Positions 18,329-38,376 of a stretch of DNA of 64,000 nucleotides are shown here, piece by piece. The stretch is taken from NCBI RefSeq assembly GCF_009650215.1, contig NZ_CP045851.1, positions 620,001 to 684,000 on the forward strand. Reading direction: 5' to 3'. A program made the translations under genes and the position numbers. The DNA is from Actinomarinicola tropica (lineage in GTDB: Bacteria; Actinomycetota; Acidimicrobiia; Acidimicrobiales; SKKL01). The notes beneath the pieces are model-generated. The model searched no databases, was not told the DNA's origin, and worked only from the letters and a program-made list of their open reading frames with translations. Numbering within the stretch: the first letter of the stretch is position 1; every line of letters starts with the position of its first letter.

Positions 18329-18712
18329 TCAGGACGGCGGGTACGGCTCGAGGCCGTGGATCTCCTGCTGCTCGCGCACGTAGGCGATGATCCGGTCGAT
18401 CTCGTCATCATCGAGACCCTCGACCGGGGGCATGTCGCCGAAGTTCCAGTGGTGTGCACGCGAACCCTGGCTGATCGCCGCACGGAACGACGCATCGGGA
18501 TGGTGGTCAGATGCGTACACCTGCGACAGGTGTGGCGGGCCTTGGTCGGTTCCGCGCAGGTCGCTGCCGTGACACGACGCACACGACTCCTGGTAGAGAG
18601 CCTCGCCCGACGAACCAGATGCCACGGTCGACGATGTCTCATCCGAACACGACGAGAGCACCGCTGCGAGCACTGCGCACAGCAGCACCATCGCTCGGAG
18701 CGAACCGCCCAT
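18329..18712 (-). CDS. Lipid-anchored class I cytochrome c
   Basis: A 127-residue lipoprotein: hydrophobic signal with lipobox LSSC, then a cytochrome c domain with heme motif CASCHG (about residues 45-50) and probable axial Met in FGDMPPVEG near the end. ATG at 18712 has TGGAG upstream; an in-frame GTG at 18730 is possible. HHWNFGDMPP and the following DDEIDRIIAYVREQQ helix are typical of small electron carriers. Paired with the DUF305 gene upstream; the same pair recurs at 35770-36554. Confidence 0.88.
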   Translation of the reverse strand: MGGSLRAMVLLCAVLAAVLSSCSDETSSTVASGSSGEALYQESCASCHGSDLRGTDQGPPHLSQVYASDHHPDASFRAAISQGSRAHHWNFGDMPPVEGLDDDEIDRIIAYVREQQEIHGLEPYPPS

Positions 18713-18728
18713 TGGTCTCCAGGTCACC

Positions 18729-18742
18729 ACGGTAACGACCGT
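18729..18742. promoter_or_regulatory. Inverted repeat before cytochrome c gene
   Basis: ACGGT-aacg-ACCGT, perfect 5-bp arms, 17 bp upstream of the cytochrome start. Could be an operator; no similar copy elsewhere was noticed. Confidence 0.3.
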
Positions 18743-18757
18743 AGCGTCAGCACCCGC

Positions 18758-19381
18758 TCAGCCGGTGGGGCACTCCCGATCGGCCGACACGTCGAACTGC
18801 GGGACCTCCCGCTCCTGTGCCTCGGCAGGAGTCGTGGCAGCGCCGTTCTCGTTGATGTCGTCGATCAGCCAGTCCATCTCCATGATCTCGCGACGCTGCG
18901 CCTCGCTGATCTCGACCGCCAGCTCGCACACCCGCACATCGTCGTTGCCGAAGCGCTCGGATCGGGTGATGGCGAGGGAGTGGTGCGGGATCATCGCCTG
19001 CATGAACGAGACGTCGTCGACGGTGGCCTGGCTGCGGTCCAGAGCGATGCCCCCGCCGAGCAGCAGCAGGCTGACGACGACGATGGCGATGTTGCCCCTG
19101 ACGTTGCGGTACATGTTCAACATCCAGGCGAGCATGACCAGGCCCATGGTCCCGCCCATGGTGACGGCCATGAAGATGCGGCTCTGGCTGAAGCGAACGT
19201 GGCTGAGCTCCCACGAACCGACGAACATCACGAAGTACATCAGCACCATCGACGTGAGGATCATCGCCGCGAACCGCAGGTACATCTTCCGCTCCATGTC
19301 GGACTGATCCCCGTCGTGTCGATCATGGGTGTTCTGCTCGTCAGCTGACGAGGTCCCCTCGTGGTCCTTCTTGGTCTGCAT
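18758..19381 (-). CDS. DUF305 membrane-anchored protein
   Basis: A 207-residue protein: polar N-terminus (about 35 residues), three hydrophobic helices (about 40-115), then a DUF305 domain with the signature MIPHHSLAITRSERF (about residues 137-151) and ISEAQRREIMEMDWL. DUF305 domains are ferritin-like helical bundles with conserved His and Met residues linked to copper handling. ATG at 19381 with GAGAGGAG upstream. It precedes and probably shares an operon with the cytochrome c. An N-terminally deleted relative lies at 36216-36554. Confidence 0.87.
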   Translation of the reverse strand: MQTKKDHEGTSSADEQNTHDRHDGDQSDMERKMYLRFAAMILTSMVLMYFVMFVGSWELSHVRFSQSRIFMAVTMGGTMGLVMLAWMLNMYRNVRGNIAIVVVSLLLLGGGIALDRSQATVDDVSFMQAMIPHHSLAITRSERFGNDDVRVCELAVEISEAQRREIMEMDWLIDDINENGAATTPAEAQEREVPQFDVSADRECPTG

Positions 19382-35769: not shown

Positions 35770-36183
35770 TCAGGACGGCGGGTACGGCTCGAACCCGTGG
35801 AGCACCTGCTGTTCGCGCACGTAGGCGATGATCTGGTCGATCTCCTCCTCGTCCAACCCCTCGACCGGCGGCATGTCACCGAAGTTCCAGTGGTGAGCGC
35901 GGGAGCCCTGGGTGATGGCGGCGCGGAACGACGCATCGGGGTGGTGGTCGGGCGCGTACACCTGGGAGAGATGGGAGGGGCCGGCGTCGGTCCCGCGCAG
36001 GTCGCTGCCGTGGCACGACGCGCACGACTCCTCGTACAGCTCGGCGCCGGTCGACGCCTCCGCCGAGCCACCGGCCGCGTCGTCGTCGCCGGCGCAGGCG
36101 CCGAGGACGAGGGCCGCCAGCACGAGCGCCGACGCAGCAGCGCGGCGCCCGCGTCGCCGCGGCACGTACGGTGGGTCAGTCAT
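35770..36183 (-). CDS. Lipid-anchored class I cytochrome c, second copy
   Basis: A 137-residue protein with a basic N-terminus, signal and lipobox LGAC, then the heme motif CASCHGSDLRGTDAG and probable axial Met in NFGDMPPVEG. The domain is nearly identical to 18329-18712 over about 85 residues but the signal and linker differ. ATG at 36183 chosen. It lies 32 bp from the truncated DUF305 frame, the same order as in the island, so the two-gene module was duplicated or acquired twice. Confidence 0.88.
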   Translation of the reverse strand: MTDPPYVPRRRGRRAAASALVLAALVLGACAGDDDAAGGSAEASTGAELYEESCASCHGSDLRGTDAGPSHLSQVYAPDHHPDASFRAAITQGSRAHHWNFGDMPPVEGLDEEEIDQIIAYVREQQVLHGFEPYPPS

Positions 36184-36215
36184 CGTCGTCGAACCTAGCC
36201 GCGCCCGCCCGGCCG

Positions 36216-36554
36216 TCAGCCGCCCGGGCACTCGCGCTCGGCGGACACCTCGTACTGCGGCACCGGCCGTGCCTCGGCCTCCTCCGGGGTCGTCGCCGCC
36301 CCGTTCTCCTCGATGTCCTCGATCAGCCAGTCCATCTCCATGATCTCCCGGCGCTGGGCCTCGCTGATCGCGACCGCGAGCTCGCAGACCCGCACGTCGT
36401 CGTTCCCGAAGCGCTCGGAGCGAGTGATGGCCAGGGAGTGGTGGGGGATCATCGCCCGCATGAACGACGTGTCGCCCACGGTCGCCTGACTGCGGTCGAG
36501 AACGATGCCGCCACCGAGGAGCAGGAGGCTCACCACGACGATGGCGATGTTGCC
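36216..36554 (-). pseudogene. DUF305 protein lacking its first membrane helices
   Basis: Homology to 18758-19381 begins abruptly at GNIAIVVVSLLLLGGG and continues through MIPHHSLAITRSERF to the C-terminus. The first three helices and polar head are absent; upstream in frame is a shadow of the EamA-like gene, whose stop lies 20 bp away. A GTG inside GNIAIVVVS could still start a one-helix protein, so partial function is possible. The breakpoint suggests a deletion or insertion joining the two genes. Confidence 0.72.
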
Positions 36555-36573
36555 CAGCGACGCCCGCCGGCGG

Positions 36574-37614
36574 TCAGGACCGGTCGTGGGTGTGGTGGTG
36601 GTGGAGGTCGGGCACGTGGGGGTGGCGATGGCGGAACGGCTCGTGGGCGTGCCGGTGGCTGTGGCGGCCGACGAATGCAGGCCCATGGTCGTGTGCGTGG
36701 TGCTCGTCGGGGTGCGTGTGCTCGTGCTCGTGCACCTGCGCCATGTGGTCGTGGACGTGGTCGTGGTCGGACCGCAGTGAGAGCCCCACGCCGATGGCTG
36801 CGAGGAGGGCGGCGGCCACCTGGGCTGCCGTGACGGGTGTCGAGAGCGCAGACCACGAGATCAGCGCACCGATGAAGGGCGCTGTAGCGAAGATGACCTG
36901 CCCGCGCGACGCGCCGAGATCGCGTGCCCCCTTCACCCACAGCGTGATCGACAGGCCGTAGCCGGTGGCCCCGATGAGCAGCGCAGCGATCACCGGTCCG
37001 ACGCCGAGCCCGGTGCCTGCGTCTCCGGCGAACACCATGCCGAGCGCCAGGTTGGCGCCTCCGGCGACCAGACCCTTGGCGGCCACGACGGTCTCGGGCG
37101 AGAGCTCGTCCAGCTGGGCGGTGACCCCGTTGTCGACGCCCCAGGCCACGCACGCGGCGGCGATCAGGAGCGCCCCAGTGCTCCACTCGGCCCCGGGCTC
37201 CCACACGAGCACTGCGCCGCCGGCGGCGACGAGACCCGCGCCGACGATGACCCGACCTCCGAGGTGCTCGCGGAAGACGGTGGCGGCGAGGGCGACGGTG
37301 GCCACCAACTCGAGGTTCAGCAGGATCGACGCAGTCGCGGCGTCGACGCGCGCCAGACCGGCGACCAGGAGTGCCGGCCCGACCGCACCGCCGGCCACGA
37401 CTGCGACGGCGAGCGGCCGCCACCCCGCCCGTAGGTCGGCCAGCGTCGGTGGCCGCCGAGCGACCGCTGGTGCGACAGCGAGCGCTGCTCCCAAGTAGAG
37501 GAGGCCCGCGAGCACGAGCGAGGCCATGTCACCTGCGAGTCGAGACGCGGCGGGCGCTGATGCGCCGAAGAGCGCGGCGGCGGCGAGGGTGCGGGCGACG
37601 GCGCGGCGGTTCAC
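36574..37614 (-). CDS. EamA-family transporter with histidine-rich tail
   Basis: About 346 residues: ten membrane helices in two EamA repeats (residues about 1-280, e.g. FGASAPAASRLAGD and DAATASILLNLELVATVAL), then a 63-residue cytoplasmic or outer tail with 24 histidines, such as HEHEHTHPDEHHAHDHG and HHHHTHD. His-rich tails are typical of divalent-metal transporters, so this EamA protein may export or sense Zn, Ni, Co or Cu; that is inference. GTG at 37614 chosen because no ATG is available in frame; the ribosome site is weak. Confidence 0.82.
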   Translation of the reverse strand: MNRRAVARTLAAAALFGASAPAASRLAGDMASLVLAGLLYLGAALAVAPAVARRPPTLADLRAGWRPLAVAVVAGGAVGPALLVAGLARVDAATASILLNLELVATVALAATVFREHLGGRVIVGAGLVAAGGAVLVWEPGAEWSTGALLIAAACVAWGVDNGVTAQLDELSPETVVAAKGLVAGGANLALGMVFAGDAGTGLGVGPVIAALLIGATGYGLSITLWVKGARDLGASRGQVIFATAPFIGALISWSALSTPVTAAQVAAALLAAIGVGLSLRSDHDHVHDHMAQVHEHEHTHPDEHHAHDHGPAFVGRHSHRHAHEPFRHRHPHVPDLHHHHTHDRS

Positions 37615-37776
37615 GGGGCACCACCGTATGACCCATCGGAGAGGTGCTGGGGTGGCGAACCTCGTGGCCGGGAACCGGAGCCTCCGTGTCGACGTCGGAG
37701 GAGGGACCGCACCCAGGGTGTGGCGTCGGGCACGATCGGTGTCCGGCGCGGGTGCCACGACACAGGAGGAAGATGG

Positions 37777-38376
37777 ATGCCACGAACCGGACGTCTGCGC
37801 GCTCGGCTCACCGGAGGGCTGCTGGCCCTCGTCGCCGTGCTCGGATCGACCGCCGTGATCGGTGCCTCGCCGGCCGACGCCCAACCGGTGGACCGCTGCG
37901 GATCGGCGGGCACCGAGTGGGTGCCCGACAGCGGGGCCGGCTTCGACTTCAACGAGGCGTGCCGGCTGCACGACCACTGCTACGGGATCAAGCCGCACGG
38001 TGCCGGGTCGTCGGGTCGTCTGGCGTGCGACCGCGAGTTCCTGAACCACATGCGTTTCAGCTGCGCGGCGATCCACGGCCCGATGGTGGGGAGCTCGCCC
38101 TGCCTCACCCTCGCCGACCTCTACTACCTCGGCGTCCGCGTCGGTGGCACGACCCCGTTCGAGGAGGCCGAGGTGCCGACCGGGCACGTCGAGGTCGGAC
38201 CAGTCGAGCCGATCCGTGACGAGCCGCCGGCGTCCTCGGGTGGCGGCGGTGGCGGCTACGGCGGAGGCGGCGGCGGCGGATGGATCGGTGGCGGGTTCGG
38301 TGGCGGTGGTGGGGGCACGCCGACCGGCACCGTGACCGTCGGCGAGCCCGAGACCGTCGCGACGCAGGCGGAGTGA
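37777..38376 (+). CDS. Secreted phospholipase A2-like protein with Gly-rich tail
   Basis: A 199-residue secreted protein. Signal peptide ends near ADAQ (about residue 35). The catalytic motif CRLHDHCYG (His-Asp, about residues 62-70) is that of prokaryotic phospholipase A2, with paired cysteines (RLACDREF, FSCAAIH, SPC). The last about 60 residues contain two Gly runs (GGGGGGYGGGGGGG) and form a flexible tail. AGGAGGA precedes the ATG at 37777. It probably cleaves the sn-2 ester of phospholipids outside the cell. A strong hairpin follows. Confidence 0.85.
   Translation: MPRTGRLRARLTGGLLALVAVLGSTAVIGASPADAQPVDRCGSAGTEWVPDSGAGFDFNEACRLHDHCYGIKPHGAGSSGRLACDREFLNHMRFSCAAIHGPMVGSSPCLTLADLYYLGVRVGGTTPFEEAEVPTGHVEVGPVEPIRDEPPASSGGGGGGYGGGGGGGWIGGGFGGGGGGTPTGTVTVGEPETVATQAE

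Follow-up and report, generated by a model that had tools for sequence, protein, structure and literature searches.

The window is a 64,000-nucleotide stretch of the Actinomarinicola tropica genome (contig NZ_CP045851.1, positions 620,001 to 684,000 of the forward strand). A preliminary description, made from the sequence alone, had singled out an EamA transporter with a 63-residue tail containing 24 histidines, and the open reading frame, the match to PF00892 and a residue count bear this out. The features considered here, all on the minus strand, are as follows (evidence in parentheses):

36574..37614, minus: eamA gene, EamA/DMT transporter, putatively CnrT-like (Pfam, CnrT alignment, AlphaFold2 model)
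36577..36765, minus: His-rich C-terminal tail, residues 284-346, 24 His in 63 residues (residue count, conservation)
36685..36765, minus: tail module A, residues 284-310, with a predicted beta-hairpin at 285-301 (alignment, AlphaFold2)
36586..36663, minus: tail module B, residues 318-343, with a predicted beta-hairpin at 316-332 (alignment, AlphaFold2)
36216..36554, minus: DUF305 copy, 5'-truncated (PF03713, E 4.2e-8; paralogue alignment)
35770..36231, minus: c-type cytochrome downstream of the DUF305 copy and duplicated with it (PF00034, E 1.1e-12)
18329..19381, minus: intact DUF305-cytochrome c pair, paralogous to the module next to eamA (ATG at 19381 assumed as the DUF305 start)

The eamA reading frame starts with GTG, ends with TGA and encodes a protein of 346 residues. 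Divergent from it, at 37720-38376, lies a gene with a match to prokaryotic phospholipase A2 (PF09056, E 5e-8) and a Gly-rich C-terminus. No promoter or terminator patterns were found between 35500 and 38500, and a search for a metal riboswitch gave no Rfam match in the window and nothing but a tRNA in the 14 relatives' loci covered (of 19 chosen).

The transporter core

PF00892 (EamA) matches two stretches of the transporter (E 2.4e-25; 89.8 bits, cut-off 28.2). A weak match to UAA was the sole further Pfam hit up to E 1; there was none to the profiles of ZIP or CDF, the metal transporters named for comparison in the preliminary description, and among NCBIfam models TIGR00950 alone matched, below its threshold. 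The host genome (3.7 Mb, one contig) contains 14 EamA matches. Two of its ordinary EamA genes (L001 and L002) each adjoin an open reading frame that by eye resembles a P-type ATPase.

An AlphaFold2 model of the transporter has a good core and a mean pLDDT of 83.4 over the whole protein, and on our reading of the model there would be ten membrane helices. The model has the DMT fold, matching LicB (7b0k) with a Z-score of 26.3 and an rmsd of 2.6 over 249 aligned residues; the structure comparisons mostly cover residues 1-287. A sequence search against solved structures returned a single match, to an antibody chain (E 1.2). LicB and 5i20 (presumably YddG) are ordinary EamA/DMT proteins with the same fold and organic substrates. 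With loops assigned by hand from the helices, those facing the same side as the N-terminus have 2, 3, 2, 0, 2 and 1 Lys or Arg within five residues, and those facing the opposite side 1, 1, 0, 0 and 0. These charges weakly suggest that the tail and the N-terminus are cytosolic, as both ends usually are in DMT proteins with ten helices.

Nine core residues (Y40, E102, D161, N162, K180, Y219, S222, R231, and R237) are common to the window protein, CnrT of Cupriavidus metallidurans, a homologue from Methylococcaceae (L020) and an Azospirillum protein. Two ordinary EamA outgroups from the host's own genome have the same residue at R237 but differ at the other eight positions, so that E102 and D161-N162 are absent from both. 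Y40, E102, N162, K180, and R231 are also common to the tailed and tailless family members examined, while three tailless members (L028, L030, and L031) have glutamate at position 161.

A conserved two-module histidine tail

The last 63 residues of the protein contain 24 histidines and the 283-residue core contains one; at an assumed histidine frequency of 2.25%, at least 24 in 63 residues would arise by chance with a probability of about 2e-23. The tail consists of two copies of a 26-27-residue module, the second of which ends in a conserved PDxHHxHxH motif. Aligned with each other, modules A and B of the window tail score 69. Of 300 composition shuffles 3 scored as high, and of 300 dipeptide shuffles none did; the tails of CnrT and L020 gave 0 of 300 in both tests. 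In the AlphaFold2 model the tail forms two beta-hairpins with pLDDT 65-79, and from residue 331 onwards pLDDT drops to 47. The same two hairpins appear in a model of L020 that is poor overall (mean pLDDT 65.2), and the two models are not independent because most alignment rows are common to both. Our confidence in the predicted hairpins is therefore modest.

To describe the tail across the family we aligned 44 tailed proteins: the window protein and those from 16 genome loci, 17 plasmid loci and 10 further Pseudomonadota loci, each with at least 15 histidines in its last 70 residues. Homologues running into contig ends (L021 and L027) or lacking a tail (L028-L032 and L102) stood outside this set. 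Sixteen histidines are invariant in all 44 (H284, 286, 288, 290, 295, 297, 305, 306, 322, 324, 329, 331, 333, 338, 339, and 341), as are two aspartates, D303 and D336. Since rows were selected for high histidine content, the composition of the tail was preset by the filter but the spacing of its fixed residues was not. The tail is thus neither a frameshift nor an annotation artefact, being conserved in related proteins, and its pattern of two fixed modules is more orderly than the description "His-rich tail" implies.

A scan of named genomes for homologues gave 12 loci. Nine of these (L011-L019), labelled variously Actinomycetota, Actinomycetes, Acidimicrobiia, Acidimicrobiales, Acidimicrobiaceae or Ilumatobacter, encode proteins 56-66% identical to the window protein, all with the tail. 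The tail is also present in a homologue from the same genus (L010), in L020 and in L022 (Proteobacteria); the L021 homologue ends at a contig end. Within the host's taxonomic family the gene occurs in two of four genomes, the host's own included. A sample of Actinomycetota gave matches at E 1e-20 in 11 of 296 genomes, again including the host's: five are tailed (the window and L023-L026, with 17 histidines in the last 70 residues of L025 and L026), five are tailless (L028-L032) and the contig of one (L027) ends within the gene. In Pseudomonadota, to which L020 belongs, 299 genomes yielded 12 with a match at 1e-40, and of the 11 apart from that of L020 itself, ten are tailed and one (L102) is tailless. 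The core therefore occurs without the tail in six relatives (L028-L032 and L102). When a DNA pattern for PDxHHxHxH was searched in the 296 Actinomycetota genomes, it occurred at 11 places in ten genomes, and five of these places are tailed EamA genes; the other six were considered as instances of the tail elsewhere and rejected, as they lie in frames without such a tail and look like chance.

Plasmid relatives were not found at 1e-20 with the window protein as the query. With the L020 homologue, 44 plasmid records matched, five of which have a gene annotated as cnrT, nickel diffusion facilitator. We fetched 17 of these records, chosen by eye for variety from the 44, and set aside the other 27.

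The preliminary description had called for a search for other EamA proteins with histidine tails, and these exist in both Actinomycetota and Pseudomonadota, with the tail retained in every one of the close homologues L010-L019. Part of what that description said would refute its reading, a tail missing from close homologues, is thus not what is seen. The tail is a conserved feature of a transporter subfamily and not an oddity of one genome.

Relationship to CnrT and gene neighbourhoods

The window protein aligns over its full length with CnrT from plasmid pMOL28 of Cupriavidus metallidurans. Identity is 43% in the core (120 of 276 residues) and 51% in the tail (30 of 59), so CnrT of strain CH34 has the same EamA/DMT core and the same two-module histidine tail. 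In a tree of 44 cores, 40 family rows including CnrT were split from four EamA paralogues of the host genome with support of 100/97, with the caveat that these four outgroups are few and sit on very long branches. The window protein belongs to an actinobacterial clade of 15 (100/99), and CnrT is not its nearest branch. Support is weak for the inner branches that join the big groups. The family rows include tailed and tailless members; with three changes required for the tailed rows, the tree gives no order for gain and loss of the tail.

Factors resembling CnrT form a class already established in print (PMC11647595, PMC7019866, PMC9045368, PMC4917562), and passages of two papers refer to Nies 2003 for cnrT or CnrT-like factors (PMC10133563, PMC4917562). 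In the passages available to us, CnrT is described as an inner-membrane efflux system, with Ni(II) export "by DmeF, CnrT, and CnrCBA" (PMC11647595), as an inner membrane exporter of Ni(II) (PMC9045368), as a nickel diffusion facilitator of the DMT family (PMC7019866) and as one of the exporters from the cytoplasm (PMC11647585); a figure legend names it a cation diffusion facilitator (PMC4803752). The listings, abstracts and passages of the open-access literature that we consulted contained no description of the CnrT tail.

The two genes differ in their setting. The gene for CnrT ends the cnrYXHCBAT operon, whereas the window gene has an actinobacterial host and no adjoining cnr genes, and queries with CnrA, CnrB, CnrX, CnrH, DmeF, and RcnR-like proteins had no match in the 14 kb around it. 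Genetic linkage to a nickel/cobalt efflux or sensing system holds for cnr and not for every relative of the transporter.

Among the 17 plasmid stretches, nine have a gene for an RND permease, a CDF or cation transporter, or a heavy-metal P-type ATPase in the flanks. On pMOL28, cnrCBA lie beside cnrT. The Variovorax and Acidovorax relatives have an RND gene in the flank, those of Janthinobacterium and Cupriavidus a CusA/CzcA-type RND gene, and those of Ideonella and Azospirillum dmeF together with a metal-type repressor; a cation transporter and an RND gene flank the Magnetospirillum relative, and an RND gene and a heavy-metal ATPase flank that of Sphingomonas. The other eight stretches have no such metal-transporter gene or a doubtful one only; a stretch with an RND adaptor only (L051) and one with chromate genes (L047) were not counted. 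Plasmids supply most of the evidence from gene context, and plasmids are enriched in metal resistance anyway.

Genome neighbourhoods contributed fewer cases. In the 11 Pseudomonadota genome stretches, a CzcA/CnrA-like RND gene shares the strand of the transporter gene in L094, an RND gene lies on the opposite strand in L095, and in eight others the 18 queries matched nothing but the transporter. The remaining stretch is that of the tailless L102 (the homologue from genome G533), which has an RcnR-like repressor directly before the transporter gene and a weak chromate-transporter match. The position of this tailless gene directly behind the repressor suggests that the core alone may serve metal export. 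For actinobacterial homologues, the transporter gene of genome G191 overlaps at its end with a CDF gene, and in genome G137 (L037, 7408-9943) a multicopper oxidase gene, a small unassigned ORF and, just before the transporter homologue, a full-length DUF305 gene precede it. A Pfam scan of the neighbours of loci other than L018, L020, and L022 found no recognised metal gene in most actinobacterial neighbourhoods, with genes picked by a simple gene-calling script that may miss some. L036 has a potassium transporter as a neighbour, and the remaining scanned neighbours have no evident metal function.

The full-length match to CnrT and the metal genes beside several relatives support the suggestion in the preliminary description of a metal exporter, but one of a known kind: "unusual" does not fit a protein whose tail is a feature of its subfamily. 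Judged by its sequence, the transporter appears to be an actinobacterial member of the CnrT-like class, and in that sense ordinary.

The adjacent DUF305-cytochrome c module, the metal and a possible mechanism

The preliminary description had also placed the transporter beside a copper-type cytochrome-DUF305 module. The matches to PF03713 and PF00034 are real, but the DUF305 copy is truncated and the link to copper is weak. This module and the intact DUF305-cytochrome c pair about 17 kb away are 78% identical over 793 alignment columns (18329-19097). Homology of the DUF305 beside eamA to its intact paralogue starts some 18 bases beyond the stop codon of eamA, and the 95 N-terminal residues of the intact protein (start ATG 19381) have no counterpart in it. 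The only in-frame ATG, GTG or TTG upstream is the ATG at 36686, inside the sequence for the tail, and the list of open reading frames begins the truncated gene within eamA (36216-36686). Differences between the copies at codon positions 1, 2, and 3 number 5, 10, and 38 for DUF305 and 7, 4, and 28 for cytochrome c; as they fall mostly at position 3, the copies have probably been under selection for much of their history. Because the module is a truncated duplicate, its juxtaposition with eamA looks like the product of a rearrangement. Co-transcription with eamA is possible, and the truncated DUF305 is probably a neighbour and not a working partner of the transporter.

We searched for similar arrangements in 57 loci, which represent 51 distinct places (six were fetched twice) and 12 of which are shorter than 5 kb. 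A DUF305 profile matched in G137 and in the Azospirillum locus (L046) only, where DUF305 lies 1.6 kb from the homologue; both proteins had been included in building that profile. Matches to the cytochrome c profile were weak (L100, E 4e-5; L099, E 0.005). Searches with tblastn for DUF305 and cytochrome c found the G137 gene only, with the G137 query only, and are too insensitive to count because the DUF305 annotated in L046 escaped them. G137 encodes a full-length DUF305 distinct from that of the window and only weakly similar to it (phmmer E 7e-5). G137 has one DUF305 match in its genome, the host has four, and the genome of the same genus (G001) has none. An intact DUF305 gene is thus not conserved beside the transporter, being truncated here and with DUF305 present in two of 51 related places, and a copper partnership with the adjacent module is weakened as a candidate by the finding that the module is a truncated duplicate.

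These observations bear on whether the transporter exports a metal other than nickel or cobalt, such as copper or zinc, perhaps with the DUF305 protein or a CDF partner. In G137 the single DUF305 gene of the genome immediately precedes the homologue, and a multicopper oxidase gene is found beyond it. The adjacency of DUF305 in both G137 and the host is, in our judgement, more than expected by chance, and of all the observations it speaks most for a link to copper or to a periplasmic chaperone. Presence of DUF305 near the transporter in two other places could hint at copper, the CDF gene overlapping the G191 homologue also fits another metal, and the window DUF305 matches the model for the metallochaperone CopM (32.4 bits, against a cut-off of 90), which according to a published abstract binds Cu(I). 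Against this stand the duplicate origin of the window module and the rarity of DUF305 beside relatives. Nickel, cobalt, and zinc, moreover, suit poly-His segments better than Cu(I) does. We consider export of such another metal improbable, though it is the most serious alternative.

Less probable still is that the tail acts mainly as a cytosolic metal sponge or sensor, with resistance arising by chelation or gating and not by bulk export. A tail with 24 histidines in 63 residues would suit this role, and a passage on RcnA of Escherichia coli, whose His-rich segment has 17 histidines in 67 residues, allows that RcnA might be an exporter or a chelator via its His-rich loop (PMC11247825). The core of the CnrT-like family is, however, conserved as well (Y40, E102, N162, K180, and R231, with D161 replaced by glutamate in the L028 group), and the gene of the tailless L102 follows that of an RcnR-like repressor. 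Export of an organic solute or a metal complex, merely metal-regulated through the tail, would accord with the EamA core and with solved structural relatives that carry choline, nucleotide sugars and similar compounds, but it is very unlikely given the full-length identity to CnrT and the metal-gene context of some relatives.

Metal export by the window protein is likely, with nickel and cobalt as the best guess: we think it probable, on sequence grounds, that it is a CnrT-like exporter of a divalent metal, with Ni(II) as the most likely substrate and Co(II) as a possible one. In the mechanism we propose, the ten-helix DMT-fold core would take up the metal ion on the cytosolic side and move it through the inner membrane, presumably powered by an ion gradient. 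The two-module tail, lying in the cytosol, would bind the ion near the inner mouth; its modules may fold as hairpins with alternating histidines on one face of each, and the tail could then feed the ion to the core or buffer it. In a more specific form, which we offer tentatively and hold to be somewhat doubtful, the tail would be a folded, duplicated beta-hairpin "His ladder" (16 fixed His and 2 fixed Asp) that delivers Ni(II) or Co(II) to a pore of DMT fold with E102, D161, and N162 as the ion site.

Two other kinds of exporter resemble the CnrT-like protein in part. RcnA, of the NicO family, is an inner-membrane exporter of nickel and cobalt with a His-rich segment that, as in the window protein, is predicted to be cytosolic. 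It belongs to a different family, its segment is an internal loop and not a tail, and the host genome has no match to NicO (PF03824). DmeF and other CDF exporters likewise export metal, their genes lie beside some CnrT-like genes and the two DmeF proteins that we read have a His-rich stretch, but they too are of a different family from the window protein with its EamA and weak UAA matches.

A gene otherwise labelled only "EamA transporter" can thus be described as a probable nickel/cobalt exporter, and CnrT-like proteins occur on Acidimicrobiia chromosomes as well as in operons of metal-resistant Pseudomonadota. Should the "His ladder" reading be true, DMT proteins would comprise, in at least two phyla, a class dedicated to pumping metal ions, with the metallochaperone built into the transporter itself. 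The invariant tail residues provide a concrete list of testable sites for the question of how bare metal ions could be selected and transported by a DMT-fold protein.
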